The translations under genes and the position numbers were made by a program. DNA of 64,000 nucleotides from Spirodela intermedia. Its lineage: Eukaryota > Streptophyta > Magnoliopsida > Alismatales > Araceae. The stretch lies in NCBI GenBank assembly GCA_902729315.2, contig LR746265.1, positions 4,568,892 to 4,632,891 of the forward strand. Reading direction: 5' to 3'. Positions 21,911 through 58,592 of the stretch are shown one piece after another. How positions within the stretch are numbered: position 1 is the stretch's first letter; every line of letters starts with the position of its first letter. The notes under the pieces were generated by a model. It was not told the origin of the DNA, ran no database searches, and was given only the letters and a program-made list of their open reading frames with translations.

Positions 21911-22770
21911 ATGGGGAGCGTGAACGTGTACGGGCCGCCCGCATCGACGGCGGTGGCAAGGGTGCTGGCCTGCCTGCTGGAGAAGGAGGTAAAGTTTCAG
22001 CTCATCCCCGTCAACATGGCCAAGGGGAAGCACAAAGCCCCCGAATACCTCAAGATCCAGGTAGATTCTCCGAGCTCCCCACCCTCGAATGTGAAAAACT
22101 AGAAAGCCCCCTTTCGTTGATGGTAATCTGGGATCTGTCGGACGGTCTGAGTCAATCCCGTGGGTTCTTCTTCTTCTGCAACAGCCCTTCGGCCAGGTAC
22201 CCGCCTTCCAGGATGAGAGTATCACCCTCTTCGGTATGGCCTCCTGTACACCGCAACAATCTGAATCGATGCTCCGAGAATGTGGGGAATCATCTTTGGA
22301 AATCTTTTGCAGAGTCTAGGGCCATAAGCCGGTACCTTTGCGACAAGTTCGCCGACAAGGGCAACAAGGGTTTGTTCGGCAATGGCCTGCTGGAGCGGGC
22401 GTCGATCGAGCAATGGCTGGAAGCGGAGGCGCAGTCCTTCAACCCACCGAGCTCCGTGCTCGTCTTCCAGTTAGCGTTTGCGCCGCGCATGAGGTTGAAG
22501 CAGGACCCGGCCGTCATTGAGCAGAATGAGGGGAAACTGGCGAAGGTGTTGGACGTGTACGAGAATCGGCTGGAGGAAAGCAGGTTCCTGGCCGGGGACG
22601 ACTTCACGCTCGCCGACCTCTCCCACCTCCCCAACGCCCAGTATATCACCGGCACCGACCGGGGGCATCTTCTGACCTCCAGGAAGAACGTGAACAGGTG
22701 GTGGGAGGAGATATCGAGCCGGCCCTCTTGGAAGAAAGTGGTCGAGATGCAGAAGGCTCCCCCTTCTTGA
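21911..22770 (+). CDS. GSTF: Phi-class glutathione S-transferase A (canonical)
   Basis: Exons 21911-22060 (150 nt), 22185-22233 (49 nt) and 22313-22770 give 218 residues, the usual length for this family. The thioredoxin-fold N-terminus has the phi-class catalytic serine context (YGPPASTAVARVL, Ser12), the cis-proline segment (PFGQVPAFQD, Pro56) and the glutathione-binding ESRAISRYL (Glu67-Ser68). The helical C-terminal domain shows LERASIEQWLEAE, FLAGDDFTLADLSHLP and the closing NRWWEEISSRPSWKKV. The enzyme joins glutathione to electrophiles or binds ligands; it is expected to be cytosolic. It is the first of four tandem genes with the same intron positions and the only one with all expected active-site residues. 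Confidence 0.95.
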
Positions 22771-23478
22771 TCGGCTCAGTCGTCCTGTTCGTTGTTCCTT
22801 CTTCCTCTGCATTTTCTCGCTCAAACTTTGACCTTAAAGAGACCCGCTGTCGTCCGAATTTCCCCATCTCTGCATATTAAATCTAAGTGCTTTCCCATCA
22901 ACCAATCCCGGTGAGCAGACTATGAATGGAACGAATCGGAAGCAGTTTCGATTATAATATTTTTCGCCAAAGTGGTTGAATTTCTAGTTTGTTCAGCATC
23001 TATTGGATGCCTCTAGTCCGACCGATTTATCGGTCTTTGATCTCTGTGTGATCGGAGTCGGTCGAGACGGCCGTAACATCTGGTGGGCTGGTGACCCGAT
23101 GACGACTGAGTGATTCGGACTATTGCGAGGGCTCGTCTCCGGAGCCACACGGAATTCTTCTTCCCCGTTCTTGTTGTAGTTCTTGTCGAGCGGACGAAAG
23201 ATGATGCATTGCTTCCTACACAGTGAAAGGGTAAGGTCGTACGGGGAAGGACGAGCAGCAGAAGATTTGATCTTCTACTTTCGGGCTTCACCACGGAAGA
23301 ACCCATCTTCCAGTTCAGGACGCCGAGTAACAACATTCCTTACCCATATCTTGGGAAGAATACTGGACACTTTCCTTTTTTTTTTTCCTTTCTCTTTATC
23401 TTTTTCCTTTCACCGCCATCAGTGGGAGGGGGAGGGGAACCAGTTGTTTCTTGCTACAGCACCTCCGGCGGCGCCACC
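22771..23478. other. Spacer between GST A and GST B
   Basis: 3' flank of GST A and upstream sequence of GST B. The T-rich tract near 23380-23425 has no coding signal. Confidence 0.5.
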
Positions 23479-23485
23479 TTAAATA
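23479..23485 (+). promoter_or_regulatory. Probable TATA box of GST B
   Basis: TTAAATA in a GC-rich setting, 91 bp before the ATG at 23576, which leaves a leader of about 60 nt. Positional inference only. Confidence 0.45.
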
Positions 23486-23575
23486 CGGCACACAGTTATG
23501 TATGCGACGTGGGAGCGGCGATTTTCTGGCGAGTTTGAAGCAGACCCGAGTTTCCTCTGCTCTATAGAGAAATTA

Positions 23576-24494
23576 ATGGCGTCTGTGACCGTTCTTGGTT
23601 CGCCGGCATGCACGGATGTGGCGAGAGTTCTCGCCTGCCTCTTCGAGAAGGAAGTTGATTTCCAGCTAGTGCGACAAGACAACTTCAAGCGTGAACGTAA
23701 ACTGCCCGAGTTCCTCAAGCTCCAGGTTAGTCTACTCTCTCTCTCTCGCTACGTATATTTATATATAAAATTTAGATAGACACCTACTCTATGTTGCTTT
23801 CCCTCTCTCTGTGTCCGTAAAAAAAGGACTTCCCACTGTGAGTATTACTCGTTCTCCCTTGCTTCTTCTTCCCTTATCTTGCAGGATCCTTCCGGCCAAG
23901 TGACTTACAAGGAGGCAGATAGAACTCTCTTCGGTAAGAAACATACCCGGTTAACATCTCACTGATCTACGGGAACCTGTCTAATCCACCATTGCTTGCT
24001 GCTTTACAGACTCGAGGGCGATTTGCCGGCACGTGTCGAGGAAATTCGCGAGGGCACGGAAGAACCAGAACAACCTGCTGGGAACGGGGGCCCTGGAGAA
24101 GGCCTTGGTGGAGCAGTGGCTCCAGGTGGAGGAGCAGCAATTCGAGAAGCCCAGTTCGTTCCTTCTCTTCAACCTGGCCCACGCGCCGCTGATCGATGAA
24201 CACGACGTTGACCCGGAGGAGATCGCGCGTCAGATAGAGAAGCTCTCCGACGTGCTGGACCTCTACGAGAAGAGGCTGGCGTCGTCGGAGTACCTGGCGG
24301 GGGACAAGTTCACGCTGGCGGACCTCACCCACCTCCCCAACTCTCACTACCTCGTGAACAACACAGAGAAAGGGCGCACGCTCTTCAAGTCCAAGGCCAA
24401 TGTCTACCGGTGGTGGGAGGCGATCTCGTCCAGGGAGTCATGGAGGATGGTGCTGCAGTTGCAGGAGGAGCGTCCTGCCCTCCTTGAGAAGTAG
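23576..24494 (+). CDS. GSTF: Phi-class GST-like protein B (Cys at the catalytic Ser site)
   Basis: Exons 23576-23725 (150 nt), 23885-23933 (49 nt) and 24010-24494 give 227 residues. The fold is clearly phi-class: LACLFEKEVDFQLV, DSRAICRHV, ALVEQWLQVEEQQF, YLAGDKFTLADLTHLP and YRWWEAISSRESW. Two active-site changes stand out. The serine position reads SPACTDVARVL (Cys12), and the cis-proline segment reads SGQVTYKEAD, with threonine where proline belongs. A Cys in place of Ser is typical of GST classes that work as thiol transferases or deglutathionylases rather than conjugating enzymes, so an altered activity is likely; this is inference. The C-terminus is about nine residues longer than in A. 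Confidence 0.93.
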
Positions 24495-26372
24495 ATAATC
24501 TGAGGGTCGGGAGCATCATCTCCCGCGCTCCCATCGTCCTTCTGTGGTGTTCATCTCCCGTTGATTCCAGTTGGATTGTCTTCCTTCGGTTCATCTGCCC
24601 TTCCATCGTCCTTAGTAGTGGGGATAAGATCCTTGTGGCAGCTCTAGTCTGGCTAAGCGGCTAGCAAATTATCTGCCTGGATAACATAATCGCGAAACGA
24701 GCAAAGCAGATTATCAAATTATCTCTCACTCCATGCTTCTATTTTCTCGTATCTATCTCTCCCCTCCCCCCTGCCTCTCTCTCTCTCTCCCCCTCCCCCA
24801 ATCTACCTGTATGTCTCTAGCCGTCTATCTTCTTTATATCTCTCCTTCTGTAGCTATCAATTGAGCATTTTAGCTCTCTATCTATGGTCTATCAATCTAT
24901 AATCCAATCTCTCTCTGATTCTTCCCATTTGTCTCACAAAGGGAGCGCACACAACTTAGTAAATGACGGCAAAAGGAAAACATGGAGAGTATCGGATCAC
25001 CATGTTCTTTTCTTTCTCCCCGATCTTTGCCGGCCTTTTCTCCGAGATAATGTAAGAGCAAGCCACGGCCGCCAGCCACCCAACACGTACTACTGAGTCA
25101 TAATTTACAGCCCTGGATGACGTGAGGAAGTTTGCACGGGGACAGCTGAGATCCCCATTGCCTGTGATTCCTCCTGAGCGGCTCAAAAGATAAATCGGAT
25201 GTCATTAAATCGACGTGTTTACAGCAAGCTTCGCCGCCGGCCGCCGCCAGTGAGGAGATCTTCCCTCCTTCCATTCGGTACTACGTCAAATAGGAATGCT
25301 TAGAGAACCTTATTATCTTTTCCGGTTTAGGACTCCCCACCGACTTCTTGTGTTCGACGGGAGCTAACCAGTCATAAAGTCTGGAGAGATCATTCGTTTT
25401 CAGTGTTGAAAGCTGAAGGCTTCATAAGACTGATGGAACGTAGAGGTGACGAGGGGTTCCCCTCTGGATTCATTCGTGCTTTTGATTATATACCATCTCT
25501 CTCTCTCTCTGTGGATGGGGAGGTAAACCTTACGTGAAGCTGAGATGTTTGTGGAGGGATTGAACGCGGAAATTGGTCCGGAGAAAAACCATAGTTCAAC
25601 CCTTCAAAAAAAAATGGTAGCAAGAGTAGAGATAACTGAATCTAATTCATTTCTACTGATTCATTATACGTTGAGAATCAAACAAATTGTATAAACTCCT
25701 GAGAACGCGCACAAGAATTGATTCTCATTGTTCGAATATAATTAGAATGCTTAGAAGAAATTCGTTCGGCCGTGTCCAAGTGCATCAACAACCTTGTCCG
25801 AATCTTAAAACAAAAGGAAATCGAGAAATGCAGAGTGAAGTGGCTGCGTTGAGGGCATCTGGGGAACCCTGGCTATCTATGGATGAGAAGCCCTTTGATA
25901 TGAGGCCGTAGTCTGTAGTCGGGAATGCTTCTGAGTTCGAGCAACCCTTGCAGCCCGAGTCACCGACAGCCCGACTTGCCGAATAGGCGAGGGGGGCTAC
26001 TTCTCTCTTTGCCGTGCTTTTCAATCTTCCATTGAATCCTCGTTGGGTAAATCATTAGCCCGGCATCTTTTCTTTCCCGTTATGAACGAGCCTTCGGGCC
26101 AAGAACTCTCTACCCCCGAGAAAGGGTAACTCATTGGCGATCTTCATGAGGACGCGAAGCGACGGAGGGGGAGCGAGGAAGGGAGCGAGTGCGCGCGCGA
26201 GAGAGAGAGAGAGAGAGCTCTCACGTGAAACACAGCCTTTCTCTTCCCCCGGATTTTTAGTCATCTTTAGCTTTCTTCTTTAATTTCTTTTCCTTTGCCC
26301 ATATTTTGCCATATGGGCAAGCAAGGCACAAAATCCCTGCCCCGTCCTCCCCCCACCTCCTCGAGCCGTAGG
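24495..26372. other. Spacer between GST B and GST C
   Basis: 1.9 kb with no gene seen. It holds CT-rich runs near 24770-24795 and 25495-25512 and a GA run near 26198-26217. Short open frames here have no recognisable motif. Confidence 0.5.
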
Positions 26373-26380
26373 TATATAAA
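26373..26380 (+). promoter_or_regulatory. TATA box of GST C
   Basis: TATATAAA, 113 bp before the ATG at 26493. Transcription would start near 26405, giving a leader of about 85-90 nt. Confidence 0.65.
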
Positions 26381-26492
26381 TCCCGGCTCCCCGGCATGCA
26401 ACGTCCAGTTGTAGTCTGCACACAGAGCCGTCAGGTGAGAGGCGGAGGAAGAGAACACGAAATCTCCAGTTGCATCGCTTCATCCGGGCGCC

Positions 26493-27343
26493 ATGGCGAG
26501 TGTTAAGATTTTCGGTTCTCCCACCTCGACCGACATGGCGAGAGTTCTCACTTGCCTCTTCGAGAAGGAACTCCACTTCCAACTGGTCCGTGTGGACGCC
26601 TTTCACATCAAAGAGCATCAGCTCGAGACGCTCAAGATTCAGGTACACTCTTCTTCTTCTTCAACTATTACTGCCGCCGCTGCTGCTGCTCTTAATATCA
26701 ATTTATGCATATGTTTCCCACGATATCTGTCGTCTGTTTACACTGGCTGGCGTTGCAGCCCAACAGACTAGGAGCTACCTTTGAGCACGGGGACATCACC
26801 CTCACTGGTAAGATGATACGGCCATGAAACATTCTTGGTAGCAGCCAAGTTCTGAATGGATCTAACGTTCTCCTGGGATGGTCCGCAGACTCGAGAGAGA
26901 TTATTCGTTACGTGGCGAAGAATTTCCCCAAGAGGGAGGAGCTTCTGGGGCCGGGGATGCTGGAGAGGGCCTCCGTTGAGTACTGGCTCAAGATGGAGGA
27001 GAACCTGTTCGAGCCTGCGAGCTCGGCCTTGCTCAACCTTGCCTTCCCGGTGAACATGCCATTGGAGCATGATATGGACGAGCTCTACGAGTGCAAGAAG
27101 GACCTGGCCGAAGTGCTCGACATGTACGAGAAGCAGCTGTGGGAGACCAAGTACCTCGCTGGTGACAAGTTTTCGCTGGCCGACCTCTCCCACCTCCCCA
27201 ATACCCAGAAGCTCATGACCACCGAGTGCGCATCCCTCTTCAAATCCAGGAAGAAAGTGAGCCAGTGGTGGACTGACATATCCAGCCGGCCTTCTTGGAA
27301 GAGGGTGATGGCCATGCAAGCGAAGTCACCGGAGGTCGCCTAA
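26493..27343 (+). CDS. GSTF: Phi-class GST-like protein C (cis-Pro lost)
   Basis: Exons 26493-26642 (150 nt), 26759-26807 (49 nt) and 26889-27343 give 217 residues. The catalytic serine is kept (GSPTSTDMARVL, Ser12), but the segment that normally reads QVPAF is NRLGATFEHG, without the cis-proline that shapes the glutathione site. The next motif is DSREIIRYV, with Asp for the usual Glu. The C-terminal domain is ordinary (LERASVEYWLKMEE, YLAGDKFSLADLSHLP, SQWWTDISSRPSWKRV). Intron positions match A and B. The likely role is a diverged GST or ligand-binding protein; catalysis is doubtful. Confidence 0.93.
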
Positions 27344-28769: not shown

Positions 28770-31270
28770 ATGTCGGCGCCGTCGGTGAATGTGTACTATA
28801 CAAAGCCTATAATGCCGGACGTCTCAAGAGTGCTGGCGTGCCTCTACGAGAAGAAGATCGACTTCGAACACATCGACATCTACGAGGGCCAGCACAGCGT
28901 CTCCGGGGACCTGCTCAAGCTCCGATCCAGGGTAAGCCCAGCACAGCCATCGCCGCCTCCGCCGCCGCCCCCGGCCGGGAACTGACCGGTTTCCCTGCGC
29001 AGGCCTCCAGCCGAATCCACGGTGCCGCCATCGAGGACGGGGACACCAGGCTCTTCGGTAACGCAGTCAACTCTTCGTTCTTCTGCAGGCTCCATTTTTT
29101 GTTCTTGAAGTTTTCGGCCAAACTCCTTGACGAGCGATGCGGGGGGTTACAGAGTCGAGGGCCATATGCCGGTACCTTGCGGAGAAGTACAGCTCGCGGG
29201 GGAGCCGTCTGCTGGGGAGGGACCCGCTGGAGAGGGCGGCCATCGAGCAGTGGCTCAAGTTCGAGGAGCAAAGATTCGATCCGCCGAGCTGGGAGCTGGC
29301 GTTCTACCTGGGCTTCGCGGCGGCGCCGCCGGACCGCGCCGCCATGAGGGACGGCGTGAGGAAGCTGTCGGAGGTGCTGGACGTTTACGAGCAGCGGCTG
29401 GGGGAGAGCGAGTTCCTGGCGGGGGACGAGTTCACCATGGCCGACCTCTTCCACCTCCCCAACTCGCACCACCTAGTGGTTTCCGGCCTCTCCCACTCGG
29501 CCCATCCGGAGGTCTCTGAGCTCTTCTCCTCGAGGAGGAACGTGAGACGGTGGTGGGAGGCCATCTCCGGCCGGCCCTCCTGGAAGAATGTCGTCGACCT
29601 TCTCAACGGGGTCCCCGTTCAGAGGACTTCCCTTCTCGCCGGCGCACCTGATAATGGCCATGGTTGGGGGCCACGCTTCACCGAAGCCACAGCTTCTCCG
29701 TCCGCCAATACTGGGGCAGGATCAGCTTCTCAGCAGCCTCTTCTTCCTCCTCCTTCTCAGCCCAAGAGTACAAAGGTAAGATCCACCAACGGAGGGAATG
29801 ATCCAGCTCGCCCGGCTTCTCAGCAACCTGGTTTCTCTCCAACCCCCCAGGAACGGGCGGAGGCATCTCCTCAAGCTGGTCCCCAAGCTGGGACTCGGAG
29901 TGGAGAAATCCCTGGCACAGACAGCAGCAACCCACCAAAGCGAGATCCTCAACAACGTTCTTCTTCTCTGCCCCCCGAAAAGGCTGAAACGGCTTCCCAA
30001 ACATCGAGAAGACCACAGGTAAATGGGGCTGAACCCACCAACGGAGGGAATGCTCCAGCTCGCCCGGTTTCTCAGCAACCTGGTTTCTCTCCAACCCCCC
30101 AGGAACGGGCGGAGGCATCTCCTCAAGCTGGTCCCCAAGCTGGGACTCGGAGTGGAGAAATCCCTGGCACAGACAGCAGTAACCCAACAACGTTCTTCTT
30201 CTCTGCCCCCCGAAAATAAGGCTGAAACGGCTTCCCAAACATCGAGAAGACCACAGGTAAATGGGGCTGAACCCTCCAATGAAGGGAATGCTCCAGCTCG
30301 CCCGGCTTCTCAGCAACCTGGTTTCTCTCCAACCCCCCAGGAACGGGCGGAGGCATCTCCTCAAGCTGGTCCCCAAGCTGGGACTCGGAGTGGAGAAATC
30401 CCTGGCACAGACAGCAGCAACCCACCAAAGCGAGATCCTCAACAACGTTCTTCTTCTCTGCCCCCCGAAAATAAGGCTGAAACGGCCTCCCAAACATCGA
30501 GAAGACCACAGGTAAATGGGGCTGAACCCTCCAACGGAGGGAATGATCCAGCTCGCCCGGCTTCTCAGCAACCTGGTTTCTCTCCAACCCCCCAGGAACG
30601 GGCGGAGGCATCTCCTCAAGCTGGTCCCCAAGCTGGGACTCGGAGTGGAGAAATCCCTGGCACAGACAGCAGTAACCCACCAAAGCGAGATCCTCAACAA
30701 CGTTCTTCTTCTCTGCCCCCCGAAAATAAGGCTGAAACGGCCTCCCAAACATCGAGAAGACCACAGGTAAATGGGGCTGAACCCTCCAATGAAGGGAATG
30801 CTCCAGCTCGCCCGGCTTCTCAGCAACCTGGTTTCTCTCCAACCCCCCAGGAACGGGCGGAGGCATCTCCTCAAGCTGGTCCCCAAGCTGGGACTCGGAG
30901 TGGAGAAATCCCTGGCACAGACAGCAGCAACCCACCAAAGCGAGATCCTCAACAACGTTCTTCTTCTCTGCCCCCCGAAAATAAGGCTGAAACGGCTTCC
31001 CAAACATCGAGAAGACCACAGGTAAATGGGGCGGAAGCGGCTCCTCAAGCTGGTAATAACCGGTCTATTCAGGGCACAGCAGCCAATGGAGCAACACTTT
31101 CCAGCCCAGAAACTGCTGGTGGCGGTGCTGCTGAGTCGAAAACTAATCAGACTGGTGGCGCTTCTGCAACTCAAGATGGGAAAGGAGACGATTCCCGTAA
31201 GCCAACCACAGAGACAGATCCTAGCGGCTCAACACGGACAGGACCTGTCCCAGAGGCTCCATCATCCTGA
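28770..31270 (+). CDS. Phi-class GST-like protein D with a repetitive C-terminal extension (frame interrupted)
   Basis: Exons 28770-28931, 29003-29057 and 29153 onward. The GST part covers about residues 1-227. The serine position reads KPIMPDVSRVL (Met15, with one residue inserted before it), and the cis-Pro segment is RIHGAAIEDG, so neither active-site feature survives. ESRAICRYL and the C-terminal domain are intact (LERAAIEQWLKFEEQ, FLAGDEFTMADLFHLP, RRWWEAISGRPSWKNV). A Pro/Ser/Gln-rich, probably disordered extension follows, built from five tandem units. Read straight through, the frame stops at 30219 (427 residues) because unit 2 has lost 17 nt. The same repeat then continues open in another frame to a stop at 31270. 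Splicing at intron-like sites within the repeats could restore the frame. A role as a binding or scaffold protein is more likely than an enzyme; this is inference. Confidence 0.8.
29776..31021 (+). repeat. Five tandem ~255-bp units with intron-like ends in GST D
   Basis: Unit starts (GTAA) are at 29776, 30019, 30257, 30512 and 30767, ending before 31022; spacings are 243, 238, 255, 255 and 255. Each unit begins with a donor-like GTAAG/GTAAAT and has a pyrimidine-rich acceptor-like CAACCCCCCAG 84 nt later (75 nt in unit 1), followed by a 171-nt part (154 nt in unit 2, which lacks 17 nt; 168 nt in unit 1). Intron-like and exon-like parts are both multiples of three and in phase 0 except in unit 2. 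Units 3 and 5 share NEGNAP while unit 4 has NGGNDP, suggesting that a two-unit block was copied. Units are nearly identical, so expansion is recent. Confidence 0.95.
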
Positions 31271-46384: not shown

Positions 46385-46615
46385 TGACATCATCGGTGGC
46401 GTTTTCATGTGGATTTGTTTCTCAAAGGGTGTCTCACAGAGCCCATTGGCATTCTGTCCACCTCCATGTTGGAGTGAACTTCTTTAGAACCCCATGGGAG
46501 ACCCTGTGGGAAGACGGAGGTGGACATCCTGCCAACTGGGTTCTGTCGGTTTCTCTTTGCGGAATCCATGTGATGATAGTTTCTCCCTCCGCTGGTCGTC
46601 TTCTTCAATCTGCCC
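46385..46615 (+). ncRNA. MIR394: MIR394 precursor
   Basis: Positions 46446-46465 read UUGGCAUUCUGUCCACCUCC, the known plant miR394. The sequence lies in the 5' arm of an imperfect foldback. The opposite arm holds AGGUGGACAUCCUGCCAACU at 46518-46537, which pairs with it leaving the 2-nt 3' overhangs expected of a Dicer duplex. Pairing continues below the duplex (CACAGAGCCC against GGGTTCTGTC, CATGTGGATT against GAATCCATGT) to roughly 46385 and 46615. The terminal loop is about 50 nt. In other plants miR394 represses the F-box gene LCR and is needed for shoot stem-cell maintenance, leaf shape and stress responses. The outer ends of the precursor are approximate. Confidence 0.95.
46446..46465 (+). 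ncRNA. miR394: Mature miR394
   Basis: Exact 20-nt match to the conserved plant miR394 sequence, as recalled from general knowledge; the predicted star strand is at 46518-46537. Confidence 0.95.
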
Positions 46616-57139: not shown

Positions 57140-58592
57140 TCATTCGGTTGGCTTCTCACTGGCCAGGTGCTTCAGGATCGCTCGTCCAGACTCCTGAGCA
57201 AAGTGCTTCTGCCTGAGCCGTACATAGGGGTACCCAATTGCTGAGAGCATGTGAGCTGGTTTTGAGAAGGAGAAGATCTCGTAGAAGACCTGGTCATTGT
57301 CGTCCCACTCTACCGAGAACCGTTCTTCTCCGGCCTGCATCAATCATACATGGGGAAAAGGTTAGGTTTTGGCCACTCAAACTGTAGAGAGCCCACAAGG
57401 AGGAAAATATAGCAGAATAAATTGAATAGAGCGGGGTTTTTTTAAAATATCGGATCTTTAGTTTGAAGAGATGGCACTTAAAAGGGGAGAAGGAAGACTA
57501 GGAAGAATTTATGCTTTGGCGCTGCCATGATCATCCTCAATATCCTCTTCTTAGTTCTTGTTCTTCATCTGCGATTAATTGGGATCAAATAGTATTTTAA
57601 TGCCGAGAGCTTGGATCCATGTGAATGGAGGAGAGTAGGGCGAGGCCCTGCCAGAACAAGAAAAAATGGGGTTTTTCTTGGCAGGCTGCTCATCGAACTA
57701 GAGCAATCGCGACTGATCGACCGATCCTTGAGAGATTTGGCTCATAATCTCGCAGGATTACCCATTGCCTCCCCAAAATCAGAGTCTCGGCTCATAGTAG
57801 GAGCTCACTAATCAGACCTTCACCGCTCTGTGATTCGTTTGATGTGAGGTGGGGAGGAGCCGAATACCAGCAAGTGGCCGCGGAGGGTGCCGCTGCCGAA
57901 GCTGAAGGAGGCCTTGGAGTTGCCAGATGGGCGGCGGAGCTCTCCTGTTCCGCTGGCCAACCCGGCGGACTCGCCGCCGCTGGAGGCGTCGGCAACGTAG
58001 GCGATCTGCAGCGGCATCGCCATCCACGGAAGGATCTCCTTCACGCAGACGCAGAACTTGGTGCCCTTCTCTACTGGCGTCTCCTCCTCCACGAAGGCCC
58101 ACCCGAGACGGAAGTGCCTGTAGAGTAAGAAGGAACTGCAGATGAAGAAAGTGGCAAAGAACGAAGACAGAAGGGAGGACGAAGAAGAAGATAGAATTGC
58201 AGACGAAGAAAAGGGCAAATAACGAGGACAGAAGGGATGATGAAGAAGAGAGAGAAAGAAAATGATAGAATTGCAGACGAAGAAAAGGGGAAAATAACGA
58301 AGGCAGACAGAAAGGAGGATGAAAAAGAAGAGGGGCTGGTGATTCTATCGGACCTCCAAGCGCAGAGCGCGCTCTTGGCGCGGCGGAAGGTGTCGGCACC
58401 GGAGCCCAGGAGGACGCGCGCCCGGTTGACGTGGAAGCCGCCCCTCGCGAGGGCGGCCTCCGCTTCGTCCGACGCTGCCCCTTCGGAGGCGCCGCGGTAG
58501 TGGGCGTCGTAGTTGAAGGCGCCACCGCTGGCGTCGACGCAGGCTTTCTGCCGCTGCGGCGACGGCGGCCTCCAGCTTAAGAAAAGGACCAT
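57140..58592 (-). CDS. DUF1990 / UPF0548 family protein
   Basis: Exons (minus) 58592-58354, 58117-57868 and 57334-57140 join to 227 residues. Visible family blocks are FLSWRPPSPQRQKAC, AFNYDAHYRGAS, FHVNRARVLLGSG, EKGTKFCVCVKEILPWMAMP, FSFGSGTLRGHLL, AGEERFSVEWD and the end YPYVRLRQKHFAQESGRAIL. Plant members (for example Arabidopsis At2g17695) have been annotated as outer-envelope-related, but the biochemical role is unknown. The start is the ATG of MVLFLSW; a longer upstream frame with another ATG exists but lacks conservation. Intron 1 contains three imperfect purine-rich repeats. Confidence 0.92.
58137..58320. repeat. Three imperfect 60-75-bp repeats in DUF1990 intron 1
   Basis: The motif GCAGA(C/T)GAAGAAA begins at 58138, 58199 and 58273, each followed by GGCAAA/GGGAAA, a CGA(A/G)GACAG-like block and more GA-rich sequence. 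On the transcribed strand they are pyrimidine-rich. The copy nearest the acceptor also provides a CTGCAG that mimics an acceptor 24 nt before the true one. Confidence 0.7.

Follow-up and report, generated by a model that had tools for sequence, protein, structure and literature searches.

The phi-class GSTs (GSTFs) are homodimers, and some GSTF groups are set apart by C- or N-terminal extensions, as stated in the accessible passages of Pegeot et al. 2014 (PMC4274894). According to the part of PMC6540824 at hand, loss of the catalytic serine alone does not end conjugation in GSTFs, and exceptions are known. Among Arabidopsis exitrons, as presented in the available sections of Marquez et al. 2015 (PMC4484396), lengths that are multiples of three are over-represented (45.8%), the GC content is lower than that of exons and the splice sites are weaker than those of other introns.

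The locus analyzed here lies in a window of 64,000 nucleotides of Spirodela intermedia DNA; it contains a GST gene, GST D, which runs into a tandem array with splice-like sites in each unit. A first-pass annotation had described GST D as a GST with a splice-tunable, modular tail. The repeated C-terminal extension and the in-frame splice-like signals stood, whereas the frame neutrality did not, owing to unit 2; the observation was correct for the most part, apart from one consequential error, and the splice-module interpretation is possible, not favoured. We consider it probable that the array is a coding minisatellite, that it lies in the tail, itself probably disordered, of a phi-like GST from a monocot clade, and that this tail is truncated in the assembly.

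GST D has a phi-like GST head

Exons 1–3 of GST D are all open in translation (Table 1). The GST domain of the gene starting at 28770 equals that of two database models, P0002 and P0003, both named Spirodela intermedia. With P0003 as the query, GST_N and GST_C matches were both above the cut-off, and the best PDB sequence match was the phi-class structure 5ey6 (GSTF2), with an E value of 3e-51. Judged by sequence, GST D is a phi-like GST, with N- and C-terminal domains and with phi structures as the nearest ones. GST D reads MPDVSRVL where helix 1 begins, without the usual catalytic serine, and the exon 1 residues at the Ser-signature position are identical in P0003. At third codon positions, the GC content is 0.89 in the GST body but 0.33–0.47 in the tail (29155–31267), an abrupt drop inside a single exon. 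Three more GST-like copies are located upstream, in 21917–27310, with exon-3 matches at 22.3, 24.0 and 26.8 kb.

Table 1. Features of the GST D locus, in window positions; each unit begins with its GTAA, and CAG is the end of the acceptor-like site.
Feature	Position	Strand	Content
GST D exon 1	28770..28931	+	ATG at 28770; phi-GST Ser signature position = MPDV
GST D exon 2	29003..29057	+	RIHGAAI against QV-PAF in the best PDB match
GST D exon 3	29153..29775	+	remaining GST domain, then S/P/Q-rich pre-tail ending at 29775
Unit 1	29776..30018	+	intron-like 29776–29850 (to CAG), 75 nt (AAG/GTAAGA), + 168 nt
Unit 2	30019..30256	+	intron-like 30019–30102 (to CAG), 84 nt, + 154 nt with 17-nt deletion (frameshift)
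Stop codon	30217..30219	+	ends the GST D frame if the unit 2 kept part is included
Unit 3	30257..30511	+	84 + 171 nt; CAG ends at 30340
Unit 4	30512..30766	+	84 + 171 nt; CAG ends at 30595
Unit 5	30767..31021	+	84 + 171 nt; CAG ends at 30850; 1 substitution against unit 3
Post-array tail	31022..31270	+	stop 31268–31270, in the frame of units 3–5

Five tandem units with one deletion

TRF reported a tandem array at 29786–31036 with a period of 255, 5.0 copies and 94% matches. Together with the coordinates, this confirms the five GTAA-started units (29776–31021; typical unit 255 nt) with an acceptor 84 nt on, or 75 nt in unit 1, that had been annotated before. Each unit contains the acceptor-like site CAACCCCCCAG. 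The intron-like segments (75, 84, 84, 84 and 84 nt in units 1–5) are multiples of three, in phase 0 and free of stops. The remainder of each unit, here called the kept part, had been given as 171 nt and a multiple of three throughout; this was wrong, as the lengths are 168, 154, 171, 171 and 171 nt. The kept part of unit 2 has 154 nt, not 171, because of a 17-nt deletion. The units are tandem, longer than 10 nt and located within a reading frame, as in a minisatellite, with the frame broken in unit 2.

A further GTAAATG, from a sixth copy, is present at 31022. The start of the post-array part resembles a diverged sixth unit in which 81 nt are missing across the intron-like part (score 41.6, compared to a shuffle maximum of 33, n = 300). 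That unit 5 was copied from units 3–4, as proposed earlier, agrees with the single substitution between units 3 and 5; other origins fit too. We also considered the array as a dispersed repeat, which it does not appear to be, as all three unit-DNA matches in its own genome are at the array locus, the repeat counts being lower bounds. Elsewhere in the window, imperfect overlapping tandem repeats with periods of 24, 37, 61 and 74 are located at 58133–58332. At gathering scores, Rfam yields a single match for the window, a MIR394 precursor (46433–46549, + strand; 77.7 bits, gathering score 60), and the tRNA scan of the window gave 0.

The deletion in unit 2 separates the tail from the GST frame

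Since 17 is not divisible by three, the deletion in unit 2 shifts the frame. In the assembly, the unspliced translation of GST D is 427 aa long and ends at 30219, which bears out the stop named by the first-pass annotation; units 3–5 and the end, up to 31270, are open in another frame. We enumerated 89 splice sets, the unspliced one included. None of the 65 that keep 30103–30256 reads to 31270; all 24 that skip it do, with proteins of 419 to 670 aa. Single removal of all five segments gives 374 aa and the same end, and was rejected as a route to the full tail. Therefore, the claim that every segment can be kept or spliced with the frame intact does not hold: unit 2 has lost the frame beforehand. 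In the enumeration, the tail is restored only by skipping 30103–30256.

The frameshifting deletion, together with the atypical residues of the active-site signature, might also mean that the gene or its tail is decaying, either as a pseudogene or because the tail is no longer selected. This explanation, which overlaps our main reading, appears improbable to us: the three GST exons are open, units 3–5 and the end are open in one frame, both kept-half substitutions are synonymous (by eye), and the atypical signature is common to those members of the clade described below whose motif is readable.

The frame of units 3–5 is probably coding

Counted in the tail frame that applies to each part, the GC contents at codon positions 1/2/3 are 0.65/0.67/0.47 upstream of the array and 0.63/0.70/0.33 downstream. 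The values are 0.67/0.66/0.39 for unit 3 and 0.71/0.64/0.39 for its intron-like part, where the coding-like codon-position signal has a P of 0.02 over 28 codons.

The tail was also compared to that of one relative, P0004. P0004 is 577 aa long, and its residues before ESRAIC look like the end of an intron; its exon 3 and tail appear as if they formed one open frame. Unit 5 with the post-array part, in the frame of units 3–5, gave a score of 121 against the P0004 tail, reached by 0/500 shuffles; frames +1 and +2 gave no match (162/500 and 323/500 shuffles as high). The 171-nt part alone scored 83 (0/500 shuffles as high) and the pre-tail 57 (2/500). The post-array part alone is weakly similar (score 62; 56/500), and the intron-like part alone has no similarity to P0004 (score 33; 222/500). 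On sequence comparison, the codon-position composition, the one-frame similarity to P0004 and the tails of the relatives all say that the frame of units 3–5 is probably coding.

Several observations count against our favoured reading. The intron-like part has no P0004 similarity and is more variable, and the sixth unit lacks 81 nt at this very place. In addition, conjugation in GSTFs can survive the loss of the serine (PMC6540824). Among the units, 5 sites in 84 nt vary in the intron-like part and 2 in 171 nt in the kept part (P = 0.04); these are few sites, and the units are not independent. By eye, the intron-like part has four nonsynonymous and one synonymous substitutions, compared to zero and two in the kept part (P = 0.14). 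Both counts leave out five further differences and a 9-nt gap at the start of unit 1, which are in the intron-like part as well.

The peptide AEASPQAGPQAGTR is encoded in the kept part of the units; VNGAEPSNEGNAPAR would occur in peptides only if the segments stay in the transcript and translation follows the frame of units 3–5. In the predicted structure of P0002, which was built from a 25-row alignment and has a mean pLDDT of 57, blocks from residue 231 onward have pLDDT values of 30–49. The modelled tail is that of the gene model, not that of the window's frame; the prediction suggests that the tail may be disordered.

Gene models give two different tails

The two S. intermedia models, P0002 and P0003, differ in their tails. 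Exon 3 of P0003 is identical to the window at 208/208 positions, and all pieces of P0003 map at 100%. P0002 joins unit-1 to last-unit sequence and from there on fits the window only with one base removed (by eye). Because of this junction and the one-base difference, P0002 may stem from a different assembly in which there is an indel or the array is shorter; for the join by itself, a shorter array and a gene-model junction both fit. As described in the accessible part of PMC7645714, the published S. intermedia models are GeMoMa homology projections, and no RNA-seq is named there. Neither P0002 nor P0003 counts as splicing evidence.

P0003 follows a path in which one intron, from 29776 to 31037, takes up the whole array and a different frame is used for the tail. 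The donor of this intron, AAG/GTAAGA, matches the consensus at 8/9 positions, and the pieces fit the window as given above. We nevertheless hold such an intron to be highly improbable. The model is a homology projection, P0002 has different junctions, and the P0003 tail is unlike the P0004 tail (score 26; 168/500 shuffles as high), while the other frame is similar. It was rejected as the main reading, as the similarity to the P0004 tail is in the other frame only.

Splice-like sites of the units

In each unit, the donor matches 8/9 positions of the consensus and the acceptor has 12/14 pyrimidines, the consensus not being trained on the S. intermedia genome. Against the same consensus, the donors of the two introns of GST D itself match at 7/9 and 5/9 positions (by eye), below those of the units; this, too, counts against our favoured reading. 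Between 29605 and 31270, no donors other than those of the units and of the sixth copy (31022) reach 7/9 matches.

The chance of such a pair was estimated for donors of at least 8/9 and acceptors of at least 11/14 pyrimidines, 60–200 nt apart and in frame. Pairs occurred in 21/5000 codon-order shuffles of unit 3, and in 332/5000 and 218/5000 synonymous recodings with the codon usage of the tail and of the GST body, respectively. At the observed 12/14, the corresponding numbers were 5/5000, 179/5000 and 79/5000. No pair was present in 61 chunks of 255 nt from other stop-free ORFs of at least 170 aa in the window, which are not known genes. An in-frame pair is unusual by chance, and less so given the protein sequence (2–7%). 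The five pairs are one observation, not five, because the units are copies of one ancestor; the genome offers very many stretches where such a pair could arise.

The segments may be working exitrons, in which case splicing would remove some of them, or join a unit-1 or unit-2 donor to an acceptor further on, in one of units 3–5; tail length would be tuned and the broken unit 2 bypassed. Several features agree with this. The site scores are high in every unit, the in-frame pair is uncommon by chance, all five segments are canonical GT-AG and carry no stop when retained, and their lengths belong to the class over-represented in Arabidopsis. The 24 splice sets that skip 30103–30256 reach 31270, the intron-like part is less conserved than the kept part, and some Musa and wheat models lack in-frame pieces of the tail, as given below. 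We consider it unlikely all the same. Different from the Arabidopsis exitrons in the passages of PMC4484396 cited above, the segments are not lowered in GC (0.583–0.595, compared to 0.558–0.571 in the kept parts). The segment lengths are divisible by three, yet translation still ends at 30219 after single removal. The five site pairs amount to one duplicated observation, the intron-like part has a coding-like codon-position signal, and what is compared for Musa and wheat are gene models from different records.

A clade of tailed GSTs in monocots

Relatives were taken from searches that scored 7,995 and 7,988 candidates, with queries all from the GST D family. At least 50 rows, the window's own included, have a tail of at least 60 aa; four of these 50 are the GST D gene (P0001, SiD, P0002 and P0003). 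In a tree of 172 GST domains, from which P0001, P0005 and P0019 were left out, GST D falls in a clade of 54 rows with a support of 0.946, three rows being the GST D gene itself. Of the 50 tailed rows, 48 are in the clade, one was omitted as a duplicate of GST D, and P0147 is outside. The six short-tailed clade rows include P0026, labelled partial, and a fragment from the window. Wherever a clade row carries an organism name, it is that of a monocot, the range extending from Acorus to grasses. The GST piece at 26.8 kb is inside the clade of 54 and outside the inner 52; the frame preceding it has a stop and may be an intron.

The catalytic-serine position differs between short-tailed and tailed rows. 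It is S in 94/96 rows with a tail below 30 aa and a readable motif, and the two exceptions, P0026 and P0030, belong to the clade. It is L, M or V in 44 of the 46 tailed rows with a readable motif (4/50 have none). As for the remaining two, the motif search matched an upstream stretch in P0127, whose sequence has LPDVSRVL, and P0147, outside the clade, has a further Pfam domain.

The longest tail among the relatives is 843 aa. In twelve sampled tails, hydrophobic and aromatic residues make up 7–15%, with either S/T/P/Q at 20–56% or charged residues at 17–45%. In Musa, seven records that represent several species and loci contain 2 to 5 TPEVKTSP motifs in a repeat of ∼28 aa. The Musa isoform X2 models P0012 and P0013, from two loci, lack the same 29 aa that are present in P0010 and P0011, and P0008 lacks 32 aa overlapping this piece; in wheat, a stretch of 148 aa found in P0123 is missing from the models P0036 and P0040. 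Because of the Musa repeats and the X2 models, repeat growth, and possibly in-frame splicing, appear to recur in the tail. The extension is not peculiar to GST D: 48/54 clade rows are tailed and the Musa tails have tandem repeats of their own. P0126 (1047 aa; longest contig 3,454 nt) joins the three GST exons with the tail, as would be expected of a cDNA record.

Tailed relatives are filed under names such as 'serine/arginine repetitive matrix protein 2' (sorghum) and 'cylicin-1-like' (Phalaenopsis). The Spirodela unit itself was not found in the tailed monocot GSTF11-like proteins; 2/386 scored candidates matched the tail query (E 0.001), both from S. intermedia. Among the matches listed (2 of 2, the best 120 of 320, and 78 of 78), none is named Spirodela polyrhiza. 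Among the open PMC papers listed, no title deals with such GST tails or with an exitron array.

Discussion

According to the coding-minisatellite reading, units were added by in-frame tandem duplication, as seen in the sequence, and would lengthen an S/T/P/Q-rich tail that is also present in relatives and is built from repeats in the Musa records too. Because the usual catalytic serine is absent, the GST head is probably a binding or dimerising one, carrying a flexible, modifiable tail. A dimeric head with two flexible tails could act as a binding or scaffolding protein, and both the reach of the tail and the number of modifiable S/T sites would scale with repeat number. The splice-like sites would for the most part be incidental to the coding repeat, with little or no use in splicing.

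If the tail is translated, the locus draws attention to a monocot clade that has been little described, whose GST-headed proteins lack the usual catalytic serine; here an enzyme fold would have become the head of a protein that is probably disordered. The wider tailed family is a more lasting result than the splicing idea. If the splice sites are used, tandem duplication would multiply splice choices, and the growth of splice-tunable tails would be testable in a fast-growing clonal plant. A junction behind a stop is expected to favour transcript decay; if pairs downstream of 30219 were spliced, truncated transcripts could be coupled to decay. A tandem exitron array of this kind, in which each duplication adds an in-frame donor/acceptor pair and combinatorial tail lengths and splicing over unit 2 rescues the frameshift, seems quite unlikely to us.

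Compared to phi-class GSTs such as 5ey6, GST D has the GST_N and GST_C domains in common and differs in having Met for the catalytic Ser and a tail of ∼200 aa or more; the available passages of PMC4274894 on GSTF extensions contain no description of tails of this type. Like the exitrons in the accessible sections of PMC4484396, the segments lie inside a coding exon, are GT-AG, stop-free and multiples of three; different from them, they are tandem copies with no drop in GC, and their splicing is putative. Tandem repeats in long exons encoding disordered regions, as covered by the passages of PMC12457776 at hand, share with GST D the long exon, the tandem units and the predicted disorder. The GST D units, however, hold splice-like pairs, and the array exon is probably the last exon, whereas that source treats internal exons. 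The tailed GSTF11-like proteins of monocots (Musa, Dioscorea, Typha and grasses) belong to the same clade as GST D, with the serine replaced and with an S/T/P/Q- or charge-rich tail.
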